A DNA stretch of 64,000 nucleotides from the NCBI GenBank assembly GCA_029907705.1, contig JARYLJ010000005.1, forward strand, positions 1 through 64,000. Reading direction: 5' to 3'. The notes beneath the pieces are model-generated. The model saw only the letters and a program-made list of their open reading frames with translations, was not told the origin of the DNA and ran no database searches. Shown piece after piece: positions 11,076-22,154 of this stretch. The translations under genes and the position numbers were made by a program. Position 1 is the stretch's first letter. Each line of letters starts with the position of its first letter. This stretch comes from Methanomicrobiales archaeon. Lineage in GTDB: Archaea; Halobacteriota; Methanomicrobia; Methanomicrobiales; JACTUA01.

Positions 11076-11441
11076 TCACCTCAGTATGCGGATTCGACTC
11101 CCTTCGGGATTGGCCCGAAGGAGCTCCTCGATACTCATACACGTCCCCTTCGCCTCTCTGATCTTCATCGTCGCACTCCTGCTGAAGTTGAAGGCCGCCA
11201 CCCGCACGGGTTGATCGATGAGACCGCTCCCGAGCACCTTTCCTGGCACCAGTATCGTCTCTCCGTCGATCGCATACCTGCTGATCTTGGAGAGGTTCAC
11301 TTCCGCACGATTCCGCGATGGGGCTTCGAGCTTCGATGCAATGTCCGACCAGATATTCGCCTGATTCTCCCTCGCTGCCTTCTTCAGGCTGTCGATCAGA
11401 TTCGTCAGGCGTGGATTTGTCTTTTTACTCACTCTCTTCAT
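11076..11441 (-). CDS. rpl18e: 50S ribosomal protein L18e
   Basis: MKRVSKKTNPRLTNLIDSLKKAAR; VPGKVLGSG. Confidence 0.95.
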   Translation of the reverse strand: MKRVSKKTNPRLTNLIDSLKKAARENQANIWSDIASKLEAPSRNRAEVNLSKISRYAIDGETILVPGKVLGSGLIDQPVRVAAFNFSRSATMKIREAKGTCMSIEELLRANPEGSRIRILR

Positions 11442-12267
11442 CGCTGGTTCCTCCTGCAATCTCATCGAGCGATTCCAGCAGACTTCGGGTGCTCTCCTTC
11501 AGGTGTAAGAGCGCCTCTTTGATGATCTCTCTGACCGGCAGGGATCCGTCACCCTCGACATTGAAGATGTAGCGGCTCCTCTCCTCATCCACCCTGATGG
11601 CAGGCTCCGAACCTATTCCTCCCCTCTTGCAGGCCTTTTCACAGAGCCGGCACAGCAGGCAGAGCTCCAGCCGCTCGGGTATGACCCGAGCCTTCCCCTT
11701 TCCGTTGGCGAGTCTGCCCCTCGGACACTCGTCCACGCACATCCCACATCCATCGCACCGATCGTCGATCGTGATCACGGGGTAATGCTTGTAACCGCAG
11801 GCGATGGTCGGCTGCCATTTCGAGTGCTCCTTCCCCTTCCCCAGCACAGCCCTGGCCTCCAGGACGAGTTTCTGGTTCTCGAAGAGTCTGAGGATCGGGA
11901 TCCTGTCATGAACCGGAGATGCGGCCGGGTCCCTCGGGACGAGGTCTCCGGAATAGACCATGCAGGGCCCCTCCACGCTCAGCGTATAGACCGTATAGCA
12001 GCGGGGGCAGCCCGCCCCTCCGCATTCGCAGCGTGAGGGGAGTCTGTAGGTGGAGAGATCGGTCCTGATCGGGATCAGACCGAGGCGGCTGGCGAGGATC
12101 TCGTCGAAGAGCACGCTGGTGTTGTCATAGATGCGCACGTCCTCGATCGCCAGGGTGGGCACCTCGCTCATCATCGCTCTCCTGAAGGAGTTCGCGAACC
12201 CGTCGCTCACCCCTTCGAGTACGAAGCGCGCCTCGTTATCCCCGAGCCTGCTGAACACAATATCCAT
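11425..12267 (-). CDS. rpoD: DNA-directed RNA polymerase subunit D with two [4Fe-4S] ferredoxin-like motifs
   Basis: GFANSFRRAMMSEVPTLAIEDV; CDGCGMCVDECP and CLLCRLCEKACK. Confidence 0.96.
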   Translation of the reverse strand: MDIVFSRLGDNEARFVLEGVSDGFANSFRRAMMSEVPTLAIEDVRIYDNTSVLFDEILASRLGLIPIRTDLSTYRLPSRCECGGAGCPRCYTVYTLSVEGPCMVYSGDLVPRDPAASPVHDRIPILRLFENQKLVLEARAVLGKGKEHSKWQPTIACGYKHYPVITIDDRCDGCGMCVDECPRGRLANGKGKARVIPERLELCLLCRLCEKACKRGGIGSEPAIRVDEERSRYIFNVEGDGSLPVREIIKEALLHLKESTRSLLESLDEIAGGTSDEESE

Positions 12268-15198: not shown

Positions 15199-16446
15199 CT
15201 ACTCCCTCCTTCCGGGAGCCATTCCAGGTGGCCTCATCATGAAAAACGCGATGATCAGTCCGAGCAGCGACAATCCGGCGACATAGGGGAAGACCCCGAG
15301 ATACGTGCCTGTCGAGGTTCTGATGAAACCGGCGAGCATCGGACCTGCAATGGCACCTGCGCCATATGCGAGGAAGACCATACCATAGCACCTCGGATAG
15401 TCGCCTGTCCCGAAGAAGGAAGCCGTCGCTGTCGGGGCGATCGCAAGCCAGCCACCCAGGCATCCCCACAGGATGGCGAATGCAGCGATGTATACGGACG
15501 TGGTCTGAATGCTGAATATCGCCAGGGAGGCAACTCCGATGAGAAGGAACGAGAGTAGCGCCGTATTTCTCGGACTCAACCGGTCGGCAAGATATCCGAA
15601 GAGGGGTCTTCCACCCCCGTTGAATATGGCAAAGAAGCCCACCAGCACCGTGGCCAGACCGCTCTCCAGCTGAACGAGCTCGGTTCCCACAGGTTTCGCG
15701 ATGGATATCGCCATCAGGCCCGAGAGGCAGCCGATGAAGTAGCAGAGCCAGAGTCCATAGAAAGATGGTGTCCGGAGCATCTGCTCCCTCCTGAGCTCGC
15801 AGGAGACCGGTGCATCAGATCCCTTTGCGGATGGCGTGCGGGAGGGCGTCCATCCAGCGGGTGGGAACGCGAGGGGCAGGGAGAGAAGGACGATGAGGGC
15901 GATGAACCCCAGTCCGAATATCCTGAAGGTCTGCATCACCCCGAATAAATTGATGAAGATATCCGCCACGTTCGCGGTCAGGAACGGGGAGACCCCGAAA
16001 CCGAGCAGTGTCAGGCCGACCGCAAGCCCGCGCCTCTCGGGGAACCATCTGGCGGCGACGGCGACCGGCACCCCGTAGGTGATCCCGACACCGATGCCTC
16101 CGATGACTCCATAGACGATATAGAGTATCTGCACGGAGCCCGCGCTGCCGGCGAGCAGCCATCCCGCTCCCGTCAGAACCCCGCCGAGGATGGCGACCCT
16201 TCTGGGTCCCCACCTGTCGATGTACTTGCCCGCAAAGGGCATCGCAATCGCAAAGAACGCGAGAAAGACAGAGAACGGGAGGAGAACCTCGCTCGCGGTC
16301 ACCTGCTGACCGAGTGTATCCGTGAAGTACTTCGTCAGAGGCCCGACAAAGACGCTCCACGAGTAGATGCTCCCCAGGCAAACGTTGATGAGAAGCCCGA
16401 TGACCACGAGGCTCCATCGTTTGAAGTCATATGCACCTCTCTCATC
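15199..16446 (-). CDS. MFS transporter, OFA (oxalate/formate antiporter-like) family
   Basis: 12-TM pattern; FAGKYIDRWGPRRVAILGG; FNGGGRPLFGYLADRLSPRN. ORF opens at 16482; start likely at the internal MDERGAYDF. Confidence 0.85.
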   Translation of the reverse strand, partial: DERGAYDFKRWSLVVIGLLINVCLGSIYSWSVFVGPLTKYFTDTLGQQVTASEVLLPFSVFLAFFAIAMPFAGKYIDRWGPRRVAILGGVLTGAGWLLAGSAGSVQILYIVYGVIGGIGVGITYGVPVAVAARWFPERRGLAVGLTLLGFGVSPFLTANVADIFINLFGVMQTFRIFGLGFIALIVLLSLPLAFPPAGWTPSRTPSAKGSDAPVSCELRREQMLRTPSFYGLWLCYFIGCLSGLMAISIAKPVGTELVQLESGLATVLVGFFAIFNGGGRPLFGYLADRLSPRNTALLSFLLIGVASLAIFSIQTTSVYIAAFAILWGCLGGWLAIAPTATASFFGTGDYPRCYGMVFLAYGAGAIAGPMLAGFIRTSTGTYLGVFPYVAGLSLLGLIIAFFMMRPPGMAPGRRE

Positions 16447-16619
16447 CATAGATATGCCTCCGCGAAGACGACAATTCTTCATGATTAATAATGTGAATTA
16501 ACTTATCAATCTTCCTCTTCTGCGCACGGAACATTCGGCCGTTGACAGGTTCAGATCGCACGAAATGGATTCTGATCTATGTAAACTATGTAAAAAAGAG
16601 AGATTGCCGATGTCAGGCG

Positions 16620-17396
16620 TCAGAGCGCCTTCACGAGCGAGTCCTTCGTCACGAACCCGATGATCTCGCCGGCTTCTGACACAGGGATGCCGCTGATATT
16701 CTTTTTCAGCATCAGCTCGATCACGTCCCTCACCGGCGTCCCCTTCTCCACCGTCAGCACGGGGGAGGACATGATATCCCTCACGAGGAGGTTTCTGATT
16801 CGGTGGTCCTGGTGCTTGTCCTCGACCAGTTCCCTGAACGAGCGCATCGCCTTCGCCACGTCTGTTTCCGTGACGATTCCGACCATCCGGTCGTTCTCCA
16901 TCACGATAAAACGGTTTATCCTCTCGTCAATCATCCTCCTCCTCAGATGCACCACCCGCTCTTCGGACTGGATCGTGTATGCGGGTTCCAGCATCTCTTC
17001 CAGTTCCGCCTCCGGTTCGATCGCCTTCAGCAGATCTCCCGCGGTCACCTGCCCCAGGAGCCGGTGCTCCTCGTCGAGCACCACGACGAGTTTATACCTC
17101 TGGAGAAGGGGTATCAGGATATCGATCTCCTGGTTCCCGTATGCGACGGTGAAATCGCTCTCCATGCTGGAGGAGACGTGAAGCGAGTTGGGCGATATAC
17201 TGGAGTTCCTCCTCGACCCGAGGATATCGGCGATCGCCTTCCTCGAGACCGTTCCCACCACTGCACCGTTGTGGGTCACGATCAGGGGATCTGCCCCCTG
17301 CTCGAGCATCCTGTCCAGCGCCTCGGTGATGCTCGCCGATTTGGCGATCGTCGCAGGTCTGGACATGATCTCCCTTATCTGGGCTGCCTGCATCAT
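16620..17396 (-). CDS. CBS domain protein (4 CBS motifs)
   Basis: Repeated IMSRPATIAKSASITEAL..GTVSRKAI and RDIMSSPVLTVEKGTPVRDVIELM..GFVTKDSLV. Confidence 0.93.
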   Translation of the reverse strand: MMQAAQIREIMSRPATIAKSASITEALDRMLEQGADPLIVTHNGAVVGTVSRKAIADILGSRRNSSISPNSLHVSSSMESDFTVAYGNQEIDILIPLLQRYKLVVVLDEEHRLLGQVTAGDLLKAIEPEAELEEMLEPAYTIQSEERVVHLRRRMIDERINRFIVMENDRMVGIVTETDVAKAMRSFRELVEDKHQDHRIRNLLVRDIMSSPVLTVEKGTPVRDVIELMLKKNISGIPVSEAGEIIGFVTKDSLVKAL

Positions 17397-18232
17397 TTCG
17401 CCACCTCTCTGATGATGCTGTCCCTCTTGACGATACCCTTCAGCTCCTGGCCCTCTACCACCACCACAGTCGAGATGCGGTGCTTATTCATCAGGTCCAC
17501 CACCTCCTTCAGGGGAGCATCCGGGCCCGTGGTGACCACCGGGCGGGTCATCACATCCTCTGCGATGGCAGAGACATTCATCACGTACCTGTAGCGTTTT
17601 CTCCCCGCCGTCTCATCCTTCCGCAAAAGCTTCACGTCCCTCACCGGCACCCCGGTCTCCGCTGCCTCATAGTCGAAGAACACGATATTGCTCTCGCTGA
17701 TGATCCCTGCGATCGTGCCGTCGTTGTTCATCACCACCAGCTTGTTGTTCCTTTCACGCATCTGGTCGATGATGTGCGAGAGCGAATGGTACCTGCTCAC
17801 GGTGATCGCCTCCTCCATCAGATCGTGTGCCCTCAGAGGCAGATTCTGCACCAGCGTGGACCTGAGCAGATCGGATTTGGTCACGATACCCGCCACCCTG
17901 CCGCCCTCCACCACAGGAAGCCCGCTGATCCGGTTATTCACCATCATCGAAGCGATCTCTTCGGTGAATGTCGTCGGGCTCACCACGATCGGGCTCCTGG
18001 TCATCATCACTTCGACAGGTATCCTGTCGATCGGTCGCCGCCTCCAGAGTGGTTCGCTCTGCCTCAACCCGTAGGCGATGTCCTTCCTCGTGATGATCCC
18101 GACCAGTTCCTCGCCGTTCGTGACGAGGAGCCTCGAGATTCGGTGCCGCAGCATCAGGTTCCTCGCGTGGGAGATATTCTCCTGCGGGGATACGACGTAG
18201 ACGGGGGTCGACATGATGTCAGACGCCTTCAT
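17393..18232 (-). CDS. CBS domain protein (4 CBS motifs)
   Basis: DIMSTPVYVVSPQENISHARNLM..; MMTRSPIVVSPTTFTEEIASMM..; overlaps the preceding gene by 4 nt. Confidence 0.93.
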   Translation of the reverse strand: MKASDIMSTPVYVVSPQENISHARNLMLRHRISRLLVTNGEELVGIITRKDIAYGLRQSEPLWRRRPIDRIPVEVMMTRSPIVVSPTTFTEEIASMMVNNRISGLPVVEGGRVAGIVTKSDLLRSTLVQNLPLRAHDLMEEAITVSRYHSLSHIIDQMRERNNKLVVMNNDGTIAGIISESNIVFFDYEAAETGVPVRDVKLLRKDETAGRKRYRYVMNVSAIAEDVMTRPVVTTGPDAPLKEVVDLMNKHRISTVVVVEGQELKGIVKRDSIIREVAK

Positions 18233-18238
18233 GCCCGA

Positions 18239-19186
18239 TCACCCTGCCGAGAAAGCCCTGACCAGATCGAATTCCGTCACGAGGCCCACGAGCCGGCTGT
18301 CCTGGATGACCGGGAGGGCGCCGATACCCTTCTGGAGCATCTCGCCTGCTGCCTCGCTGATGCTGCATTCAGGTGTGATCGTGATCAGCTCGCTGGAGAG
18401 TATCGTCCTCACGGGCAGCTCCATCACCTCCGCGATGGAACCGGTGACAAGCTTCTGGAAGACCTGCCCGGTGCCCAGGTATCTCATCACATCGCTGTTC
18501 GTGACGATTCCGAAGAGGATATCTCCGCTCACCACCGGTAGTCTCCTGAATTTATGCTGGATCATCTCTCTCGTCGCTGCCGAGATGGGGGTATCGGGAC
18601 CTGTCACCTTCAGTCCCCGGCTCATCACCTCGCTCACCTGCCTCGTGTCCCTCTCGGTGACCAGCGCCTTCATGACATCCCGCTCCGTGACGATCCCCTG
18701 GATCACCCCTTCCCTGTTCACCACCGGGAATCCGCCGATCTTCCTTGTCACGATCAGATCCGCCACCTCTGCGATCTTCGCGTCTCTGTTCACGGTCACC
18801 ACCTGTGTGGACATGATCTCCCGCACACTATCGTTTATCGCTGCGATGAGATTTCCGCCGTGCTTCCCCTTTACGAGATTGTATTTGCTGCCCCCGCCCA
18901 TCAGATCGATGATGTCGCCTGCCGTGACGATACCCCTCACCTTGTGGGTCCCTGGATCGGTGATGGGAATTCTTCTGAAACCGAACTTCGTCATCGCCTC
19001 CACGGCTCCCATGATGGTCGATGTGGGGGCGAGGGTAACGACCTCATGACTTGCGATGGCCATTATCTCGCCTTCATGCTTCGATATACGCGACTCGAAT
19101 TCGACAGGGCCCCTATCGAGTTTTCCTGGCATCTTCAGCAGCCTGTCATTGGAACGGTTCGGATTGGATTTACGGTGCATATACAA
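18239..19186 (-). CDS. CBS domain protein (4 CBS motifs)
   Basis: EIMSTQVVTVNRDAKIAEVADLI..GIVTERDVMKAL and three further repeats. Confidence 0.92.
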   Translation of the reverse strand: MYMHRKSNPNRSNDRLLKMPGKLDRGPVEFESRISKHEGEIMAIASHEVVTLAPTSTIMGAVEAMTKFGFRRIPITDPGTHKVRGIVTAGDIIDLMGGGSKYNLVKGKHGGNLIAAINDSVREIMSTQVVTVNRDAKIAEVADLIVTRKIGGFPVVNREGVIQGIVTERDVMKALVTERDTRQVSEVMSRGLKVTGPDTPISAATREMIQHKFRRLPVVSGDILFGIVTNSDVMRYLGTGQVFQKLVTGSIAEVMELPVRTILSSELITITPECSISEAAGEMLQKGIGALPVIQDSRLVGLVTEFDLVRAFSAG

Positions 19187-19210
19187 ACCCCTTCAATATT
19201 CAGATATTCC

Positions 19211-19969
19211 TCAACCCTGCACTCTCAGCGCCTTTAGCAGATCGTGCCGGTCCACGATCCCCACAATCTTCTTCTCCTGCACAACGGGCATCCGGCTGAT
19301 ATCGTGCTTTACCAGCATCGCCGCCGCATTCTTCAGATCCTCGTCGGGGGAGACGCATATGGCAGGCGTGGACATGATCGATTCCACAGGTGTCTTTGTG
19401 AGATTCTTCAGCGACTTGTATACCCTTCGCCTTCTCAGAATATCCCTCCTCGATACGATTCCGATGATGTTTCCGCCCTTGAGAACCGGAAACGCGGTAT
19501 ATCCACTCTCCACTATGAGGTTATAAACCTGGGGGACAGGCTCCTCCGCGCCGATGGAGACGACCTCTCTGGTCATGAAGGACGACACCCTCCCCTCGAT
19601 CTCCCTGCTGGAGATGAGCAGGGGGAATATATCCGAGAGGAGGACCACACCCAGCAGCATGCTGTGATCATCGGCAATCGCCACGCTGTCTGTCCCCGCA
19701 CGCCTGATCGCCAACGCGGCGCCCTCGATCGTCTCATTCGGTGTGACATGGGGCGCCTCTCTGAGAAATCCCTCCACGGTTACATTCGATCTGGTATCGG
19801 TGATCCTGAGCGCATCGGTGATGTCGATGTAACCCATCAATTTTCTGCTCCCGTTGTGGACATACAGCTCTCTGTAGATGTCGTCACGCAGTATCTTCCT
19901 TGCCTTGGTCAGATGATCGGTGCAGACGAGGAGAGGGGCCTCTCTCATCACCTCTTCCACCGTCCTCAT
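19211..19969 (-). CDS. CBS domain protein (4 CBS motifs)
   Basis: SIMSTPAICVSPDEDLKNAAAMLVKHDISRMPVV..GIVDRHDLLKAL. Confidence 0.92.
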   Translation of the reverse strand: MRTVEEVMREAPLLVCTDHLTKARKILRDDIYRELYVHNGSRKLMGYIDITDALRITDTRSNVTVEGFLREAPHVTPNETIEGAALAIRRAGTDSVAIADDHSMLLGVVLLSDIFPLLISSREIEGRVSSFMTREVVSIGAEEPVPQVYNLIVESGYTAFPVLKGGNIIGIVSRRDILRRRRVYKSLKNLTKTPVESIMSTPAICVSPDEDLKNAAAMLVKHDISRMPVVQEKKIVGIVDRHDLLKALRVQG

Positions 19970-20529
19970 GCAAGACGGTCCTCCTCACGGCATGACGGGC
20001 AGAGCATCAGGTTGTCCACCCTCCGCAGGTCATCGGACATCGTATGACATCGGTCGCATATGCCCATCTCCACCATCTCCTCGCGGTTGATGACGAGGAG
20101 ATCGGCCATGATCTCGTTGATCTCGCTCGCGACACTGAGTATATCCCTCACGGTGACGATTCCAACCACCTTCTGGCCGTCCACCACAGGAAGCCTTCTC
20201 ACATGATGCTTCACCATCATCTGGGCTGCATCGCCCACCGTCCTGTCCATCGGAATGGTGATCAGCGGGGTGCTCATCACCTGGTGGACGGTGATACTGC
20301 TCGGCTTGATATCCTTCGAGACGACCTTGCAATTGATGTCCTGCTCCGTGACGATCCCGATCGGGAGATTGTTCTGGAGTACGATGCAGCTCCCCACCTC
20401 TTCGCGGCACATGGTGGCAGCTGCCTTCGCGACGGAAGCCTCATGGTCGATCGTGGTGGGGTGATGCCGCATCACCTCTCGCAGAGGCACTCTCGTCTCG
20501 AATTGCATTGAATCGCGTCTGTTCTGCAC
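19966..20529 (-). CDS. CBS domain pair with C-terminal zinc ribbon
   Basis: Two CBS motifs then CDRCHTMSDDLRRVDNLMLCPSC. Confidence 0.9.
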   Translation of the reverse strand: MQNRRDSMQFETRVPLREVMRHHPTTIDHEASVAKAAATMCREEVGSCIVLQNNLPIGIVTEQDINCKVVSKDIKPSSITVHQVMSTPLITIPMDRTVGDAAQMMVKHHVRRLPVVDGQKVVGIVTVRDILSVASEINEIMADLLVINREEMVEMGICDRCHTMSDDLRRVDNLMLCPSCREEDRLA

Positions 20530-20722
20530 AGGATCACCTTTGCTCCATCTGATCTGCCTGTCGGGCAGATTTTCACTTATCTATATGCTGATGATATTAA
20601 AGAATACTTCCAGCTCCGCAGCCGCCCGTGCCTCCGCTTCCCTGAAATTGAACTGCACTATGATTATATGCCCGAAAAAATAAAAATAAAACTGATTACA
20701 TGAAAGATCAGGGTGCTGACCA

Positions 20723-21364
20723 ATGAGTCTTCTTCTTCGGGCAAAAAAGAGATTCAAACGCCTCTTCAGGGTGCTTTTAAGGAGGAAGAATGCCCGCATC
20801 GGGATATACGGTCCGCCCAATGCAGGGAAGACGACGCTCGCGAATCGTATCGTGCGCGACTGGACCGGCGATGCGGTCGGACCTGTGAGCGAGATCCCTC
20901 ATGAAACGAGGAGGGCGAGGCGGAAGGAAAATATCACCATCACAGGGACGAATGGCAGTTCGGTCGATATCGATATCGTCGATACCCCGGGAGTGACGAC
21001 GAAGATCGATTACCACGAGTTCCTCGAATATGGCCTGGAGAAGGAGGAGGCGATCACGAGGGCGAGGGAGGCGACAGAGGGGGTGGCCGAGGCGATGCAC
21101 TGGCTGAGGGAGGACATCGACGGTGTCATCTATGTGCTGGACTCCACGCTCGATCCGTTCCTGCAGGTGAACATCATGATGGTCGGGATCATCGAGAGCA
21201 GGAAGCTGCCTGTGATCATCGTGGCAAACAAGATCGATCTCCCTGACTCTTCCCCGGCAAGAATTAAGAGCGCCTTCCCGCAGCATCCGGTCGTCGCCAT
21301 CTCTGGCCTCGAGGGGCAGAACATGGAGCAGCTGTACGAGGAGATGACAGAGAGGTTCGGGTGA
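20723..21364 (+). CDS. Era-like GTP-binding protein
   Basis: GPPNAGKTTL (G1), DTPG (G3), NKID (G4). Confidence 0.93.
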   Translation: MSLLLRAKKRFKRLFRVLLRRKNARIGIYGPPNAGKTTLANRIVRDWTGDAVGPVSEIPHETRRARRKENITITGTNGSSVDIDIVDTPGVTTKIDYHEFLEYGLEKEEAITRAREATEGVAEAMHWLREDIDGVIYVLDSTLDPFLQVNIMMVGIIESRKLPVIIVANKIDLPDSSPARIKSAFPQHPVVAISGLEGQNMEQLYEEMTERFG

Positions 21365-21741
21365 GCGTGATGGTGCAGGGCGTCCAGATAGACCTCATCT
21401 CGGAAGACCGACTCTCGAGGCTCACCTCGATGGAGAAGATCAGGCTCATACTCGATGGGGTGAAGGAAGGGAATATCGTGGTCCTGGAGAAGGGCCTCGC
21501 CCCAGAGGAGGCGACGAAGCTGATCGAGCTGACCATGCTCGAGATCAGGCCGGACGGTTTTTCAGGCATCGAGATGGAGACCTATCCCGCACGGGAGGAC
21601 GAGGGAGGGTTGTCTTCGGTCATCTCTCGCATACTGGGGCGGAAGAACCGGTCCCGTATGACGGTGATCGGTCCTGCCAACCAGCTGAAGACGATCAGAA
21701 AGGAGAAGGATCTGATTAGCGCCTGGATCTCCTCGCGGTGA
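21361..21741 (+). CDS. DUF2073 family protein (OapB/ArvB-like)
   Basis: Position between Era-like GTPase and Zn-ribbon protein with overlapping ends; family name from memory. Confidence 0.75.
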   Translation: MSVMVQGVQIDLISEDRLSRLTSMEKIRLILDGVKEGNIVVLEKGLAPEEATKLIELTMLEIRPDGFSGIEMETYPAREDEGGLSSVISRILGRKNRSRMTVIGPANQLKTIRKEKDLISAWISSR

Positions 21742-22154
21742 AGGTGCACATGCCCCACAAATGTGTGAAATGCGGCCGGGAGTTCGAGGACGGGTCGATG
21801 GAGATTCTGAAGGGTTGCCCCAGCTGCAGCGGTAAAAAATTCCTGTATGTCCGCGAGGAGGAGAGGCATGCGGACGTGATGGATGAGAAGCCCGCGAGGA
21901 CGCTCGCAGAGGAGAGGGTCCACGCGGTGCTCGAGCTGCAGCGACCCGCGCAGAAAGAGGTGGAGCTCTTCGAGCGCGTCGAGACGATCAGGATCCTGGG
22001 GCCCGGTAGGTACGAGGTGAATATCGAGAAGCTCGCCCGGAGCGACGATATCGTTCTGGGTATCGGGAAGGAAGGGCGGTACATCGTGGATATCCACTCG
22101 ATGGCGAGAGCGGAGAAGGGAGAGAAGAAGGAGAGGAAGAAGGAGAAGAAGTGA
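21738..22154 (+). CDS. Zn-ribbon protein (OapC/ArvC-like)
   Basis: CVKCGREFEDGSMEILKGCPSCSGKKF; third member of the conserved archaeal trio. Confidence 0.8.
   Translation: MKVHMPHKCVKCGREFEDGSMEILKGCPSCSGKKFLYVREEERHADVMDEKPARTLAEERVHAVLELQRPAQKEVELFERVETIRILGPGRYEVNIEKLARSDDIVLGIGKEGRYIVDIHSMARAEKGEKKERKKEKK

Follow-up and report, generated by a model that had tools for sequence, protein, structure and literature searches.

The systems closest to the one described here are built from CBS-domain modules and act, or have been proposed to act, on the ribosome. HibA joins a CBS module related to family CM-5 to an HPF/RaiA domain, and its module binds AMP/ATP, which does not clearly alter where it sits on the ribosome; Dri is a fusion of CM-5 and CM-1; and environmental methanogens carry a CM-5/4/1/2 gene cluster, usually without HibA, the families of which have been proposed as hibernation factors (PMC13324472; Nat Commun 2026). 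The same paper leaves CM-2 without an assigned role and places most single-pair CBS proteins outside the CM families. According to their titles, three electron cryo-microscopy entries released on 2026-01-28 contain the 70S ribosome of Methanosarcina acetivorans with SriA and SriB (PDB entry 9ZNF), with SriC and SriD (9ZNI) and with SriD (9ZNG). Here, we analysed a window of 64,000 nucleotides (nt) from a Methanomicrobiales archaeon (assembly GCA_029907705.1, contig JARYLJ010000005.1, positions 1 to 64,000), in which positions 16620–20529 of the minus strand hold five CBS-domain genes, termed g1–g5 in the order of transcription. We read this operon as a ribosome-hibernation set (g2–g5) with a conserved companion (g1), with a probability of about 0.87; the hibernation role is taken from the orthologues.

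These orthologues carry the argument. Against the PDB sequences, g2 is most similar to 9ZNF_4 (E = 4e-39 over the full length; E = 1e-101 using a profile) and g3 to 9ZNF_5 (E = 2e-76 over the full length, 46% identity to this M. acetivorans orthologue), with MJ1225 also matching g3 at E = 6e-59. The best match of g4 is 9ZNI_6 (E = 9e-55, full length), and those of g5 are 9ZNI_7 and 9ZNG_7 (E = 1e-45, residues 4–256). When an AlphaFold model of g4 was compared by fold, 9ZNI_6 likewise ranked first, with 35% identity over the match. The three entries were compared by titles and sequences, and their uS11 sequence is identical to that in PDB entry 9O17, an M. acetivorans 70S ribosome. As chain 7 is the sole Sri protein in 9ZNG, g5 corresponds to SriD and g4 therefore to SriC; gene order suggests that g2 is SriA and g3 is SriB.

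A tree of 86 modules agrees with these assignments: g2–g5 fall into four clades, one per gene (98–100% bootstrap, not fully settled according to the tree software), each of which holds the corresponding M. acetivorans chain, and MJ1225 groups with g3. The two halves of Dri, rebuilt for the tree from search alignments (g4 aligns to Dri residues 434–633), fall with g2 for the N-terminal half and inside the g4 clade for the C-terminal half; both branches are very long, and the placement is thus support rather than proof. The Dri halves anchor CM-5 to g2 and CM-1 to g4, and the published cluster order then gives CM-4 as g3 and CM-2 as g5. Four stand-alone four-CBS modules of the CM type are present, and their order, g2-g3-g4-g5, matches CM-5/4/1/2; to judge from sequence, g2–g5 is the CM-5/4/1/2 cluster of the HibA paper. 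Provided that the cluster order is right in making g5 the CM-2 member, the CM-2 orthologue SriD sits on the ribosome, which links this member of the published cluster to deposited 70S structures of its orthologues.

The original prediction, made from the DNA alone, had described five co-directional genes, two pairs of which overlap by 4 nt, with about 18 CBS motifs, no transporter, enzyme or kinase domain attached and a zinc ribbon on the first gene only, and all of this stands. The five open reading frames (ORFs) on the minus strand are g1 (19966–20529; 187 residues), g2 (19211–19969; 252 residues), g3 (18239–19186), g4 (17393–18232; 279 residues) and g5 (16620–17396; 258 residues). The operon head g1 has a GTG start with AAGGTGATC just before it; g3 starts at a TTG at 19186 or, more likely, at an ATG at 19180. 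Exactly 4 nt are shared by g1 and g2 (19966–19969) and by g4 and g5 (17393–17396). CBS (PF00571) is the sole Pfam family above its curated cut-off in the five products, and PF02482 is absent from the genome. The tally is 2 + 4 + 4 + 4 + 4 = 18 CBS domains, including two degenerate domains of g2, one of which scores 21.6 bits (cut-off 24 bits) and the N-terminal one of which is not reported by Pfam; both align with 9ZNF_4. As 17 of the 46 CBS matches in the whole genome (1.79 Mb) lie within the 3.9 kb of the operon, their clustering exceeds chance. A C-terminal CxxC...CxxC ribbon is found in g1 alone among the five products.

The signals at the two ends of the operon are compatible with one predicted transcript for the five genes. 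A TATA-like box, TTTAATAT, read by eye at about 20594–20601 (minus strand), lies upstream of g1; a box is seen by eye in this position in nearly all of 20 loci from the order, with the variants TTTTATA or TTTAATA in most of these relatives. At the other end, a T6 run (16592–16597, minus strand) directly after g5 is a probable archaeal terminator and is the only coding-strand run of at least five T within or directly after the genes. An inverted repeat in the g1 leader, ATCTGCCCGACAGGCAGAT, was considered as an operator or hairpin and rejected, as it is not conserved in relatives.

Conservation was followed in 61 Methanomicrobiales loci and in 39 loci outside the order that were fetched around g3. 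The order of the genes, which the original prediction had proposed to check across methanogens, is the same across many archaeal families, methanogens included. All five genes are present in 35 of the 61 loci within the order, and no locus with g2 lacks g1; g4 and g5 overlap by exactly 4 nt in 37/37 loci, and g1 and g2 do so in 39/42. The genes most often lost are g2 and g4 (at the threshold used, 42/120 genomes from the order have no g4, some of them being incomplete). Outside the order, g1 adjoins g3 and heads the cluster in all 39 loci, 27 of which have the complete set. Named loci with the complete set include Methanosarcina, where the same five genes stand in the same order, Methanothrix, Methanoperedens, Methanohalophilus and Hydrothermarchaeum. 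Partial sets also occur: g1–g3 alone in Archaeoglobi and some Bathyarchaeota, and g1-g4-g5 in Methanomethylicota and Culexarchaeum. Two loci, both from multi-contig genomes, have natural single-ORF fusions, of g3 with g4 (589 residues; L094:4547-6445) and of g2 with g3 (577 residues; L113:5585-7324). Together with the pairings in the PDB entries, these suggest that the modules act in pairs. Open frames of ∼600 residues around g4 had hinted that g3 and g4 are fused in many genomes; ORFs called directly are separate there, and single-ORF fusions were found only in these two loci. The Pfam RaiA model is too weak for archaeal HibA (21–26 bits) and the search for HibA was therefore redone with a real HibA C-terminus; this query found the C-terminal domain in none of 80 genomes of the order and in 40 of 120 genomes of the phylum.

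The [ST]xxD adenosyl motif is conserved at both sites of g1, at all four sites of g3 (89–100%), in CBS1 and CBS2 of g4, in CBS3 of g2 and in CBS3 of g5, and is lost or variable in the remaining CBS domains of g2, g4 and g5. As far as this motif can indicate, the likeliest readers of a regulatory ligand are g1, g3 and part of g4, and the map shows which of the 18 domains merit testing with AMP/ATP. Outside the CBS cores, the best-conserved parts of g4 are WRRRPIDRIP and RK..AGRK.YRYV. An arginine loop (PLWRRRPIDRIP; 18017–18052, minus strand) with near-invariant R65, R66 and D69 lies between CBS1 and CBS2, and a conserved basic loop (...LLRKDETAGRKRYRYV...; 17552–17635, minus strand) lies between CBS3 and CBS4. 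An insert at the site equivalent to the latter has been described for Dri and HibA (PMC13324472). AlphaFold models were made for g1 and g4, and that of g4 is least confident at the conserved loops (residues 59–63, 188–201 and 203–219, with a predicted local distance difference test score, pLDDT, of <50 at 188–201 and 203–219), as would be expected if these basic loops become ordered on RNA.

From the orthologues and the motifs we infer a scheme for silencing in this organism, the sites occupied, control by ligand and the role of g1. Each of g2–g5, as a four-CBS module, would settle at functional sites of idle 70S ribosomes and thereby silence and protect these when energy is low, with g2 and g3 binding as one pair and g4 and g5 as another. 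On the model of Dri, g2 (CM-5) would cover the active site of the large subunit, and g4 (CM-1) would plug the mRNA path of the small subunit, which its conserved basic loops may enter. Adenylate binding, which on paper is strongest in g1, g3 and half of g4, would make ribosome binding depend on the energy state, and g1 could either regulate the set or serve on the ribosome as a partner in loading or release. The scheme alters what the original prediction had made of the genes. It had pointed out that CBS pairs usually bind adenosyl ligands; adenosyl-type sites do exist in this operon of CBS-only proteins, although many of the domains have not kept the motif. It had also proposed a multi-subunit sensor, and the orthologues of g2 and g3 do share one entry (9ZNF) and those of g4 and g5 another (9ZNI), but as mainly ribosome-binding modules rather than as one free complex. 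Its target, which had been left open, is identified by the orthologues of g2–g5 as the 70S ribosome, so that a sensor without an assigned target is replaced by a concrete target for a cluster that is widespread in methanogens.

Several points weigh against this interpretation. The evidence for the ribosome comes from the orthologous M. acetivorans system, the sequences of which have diverged and which is known here by titles and sequences. Since Dri joins CM-5 with CM-1, and M. acetivorans pairs SriA with SriB and SriC with SriD, the analogy used for the sites may be wrong; given the very long branches, the placement of the Dri halves is also less certain than the bootstrap support implies. 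There is no g1-like chain in the Sri ribosome entries, and the PDB holds no counterpart of g1 bound to a ribosome. Finally, one family (f14; loci L108, L109 and L110) has both the complete five-gene cluster and HibA, and the mutual exclusion of the two is therefore not absolute.

The place of g1 is the part of the hibernation reading that admits a variant. Its ribbon segment (19978–20070, minus strand) contains Cys158, Cys161, Cys177 and Cys180, which are invariant in 62 homologues and predict the binding of a metal, Fe or Zn. The AlphaFold model (mean pLDDT 86.8) has its best PDB fold match in Ta0289 (PDB entries 1PVM and 2QH1), with which g1 shares a CBS pair followed by a C-terminal CxxC...CxxC ribbon. 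We found no published description of g1, and the word 'zinc' occurs 0 times in PMC13324472. Its linkage to the cluster is as tight as that of the CBS modules themselves. It may be a fifth member of the hibernation set, a loader, releaser or partner that senses adenylates and a metal or redox state, in which case the conserved unit would be of five genes and not four; we rate this at a little under an even chance, and hold with similar reserve that this five-gene unit is shared from methanogens to Bathyarchaeota and reduced to g1–g3 in some lineages. In the variant, which is tentative and compatible with hibernation by g2–g5, the operon is mixed and g1 regulates expression away from the ribosome in response to energy and to a metal or redox state. 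Ta0289 was solved as 'a CBS-rubredoxin-like protein, in its Fe+2-bound state', g1 stands without an adjoining CBS module, beside unrelated genes, in 26 of the 80 named loci, and its absence from the Sri entries is as this variant would have it. Pfam, however, recognizes no DNA-binding domain in g1, no conserved inverted repeat was found at the 5′ end of the operon in the relatives read, and g1 heads all of the clusters sampled outside the order. In most loci within the order, moreover, g1 and g2 overlap by exactly 4 nt, an arrangement often seen for coupled subunits. The neighbours of solitary g1 genes have no common theme (an amidohydrolase twice, V4R, CitG and a TnpB-like gene); at L201:6276-6950 a Cas12f1-like/TnpB-type gene lies directly before a solitary g1 homologue. 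At L092:3206-4468 a Methanosarcina-like cluster is headed by a tandem fused duplication of g1 (413 residues), in which both the CBS pair and the Zn ribbon are present twice.

A free multi-subunit energy sensor resembling the γ subunit of AMPK, acting on a kinase, a transporter or a transcription factor and not on the ribosome, is improbable. It would draw on the orthology of g3 to MJ1225, deposited as 'a putative archaeal homolog of g-AMPK', on the conservation of all four adenosyl motifs of g3, and on HhpR (CM-3), a stand-alone CBS module that is a transcription factor (PMC13324472). However, orthologues of all four four-CBS products have been solved on the 70S ribosome, and the score of the HhpR model is far below its cut-off for the operon proteins. 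In the tree, which contains no CM-3 sequence, g2–g5 fall into other supported clades. The conserved neighbours noted were an Era-like GTPase and OapB, with no kinase gene seen among neighbours that were not fully annotated. Regulation by the cluster of the neighbouring major facilitator superfamily (MFS) transporter (15199–16482, minus strand), a carrier of the lactate/oxalate type 137 nt downstream of g5 on the same strand, is highly improbable and operon coupling to it was rejected, as the terminator-like T6 run separates the two and the linkage is not conserved (an MFS gene is near the cluster in only 4/61 loci of the order).

The remaining observations concern the surroundings of the operon. 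Divergent from it, positions 20723–22154 (plus strand) encode the Era-like GTPase (20723–21364), OapB (PF09846) and then a Zn-ribbon gene; the first two are probably a separate unit. The GTPase is divergent from the cluster in 60/61 loci of the order and in 14/39 of those outside it, which may reflect functional coupling or merely old synteny. The MFS carrier itself scores 375.6 with the NCBIfam model of an L-lactate transporter (SfMCT; cut-off 320), which is unexpected in a genome of a methanogen order. Further downstream, the product of 11425–12267 (minus strand) resembles, by eye, archaeal RNA polymerase subunit D, with two Cys clusters suggesting a ferredoxin-like 4Fe-4S insert, and the adjoining genes resemble those for S11, S4 and S13, also by eye.

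Compared with known systems, the operon is closest to SriA–SriD of M. acetivorans, the one-to-one orthologues of g2–g5, and the gene order is the same in Methanosarcina relatives. It differs in its spacing, with 4 nt overlaps here and spacers of up to several hundred nt in Methanosarcina-like loci, and in that the named Sri set does not include g1. The CM-5/4/1/2 cluster has the same four families, in a genome that, as is usual, has no HibA, whereas here there are five genes including one for a Zn ribbon. The CBS module of HibA is found on vacant ribosomes, as is proposed for g2–g5, but the HPF/RaiA domain that accompanies it was found neither here nor in the other genomes of the order that were searched. 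Dri, the dual ribosomal subunit inhibitor of Pyrobaculum calidifontis (PDB entries 9E6Q and 9E7F), is a single fused protein with two CBS modules, the N-terminal half grouping with g2 and the C-terminal half with g4; here the modules are encoded by separate genes, and the fusions seen in relatives are of g3 with g4 and of g2 with g3, not of g2 with g4. Ta0289 has the CBS pair and C-terminal metal ribbon of g1, with ∼24% identity over the aligned part, and the linkage of such a protein to an operon of CBS modules is a new context. The system itself is thus of a known kind, and its new element is the near-constant Zn-ribbon gene at its head.

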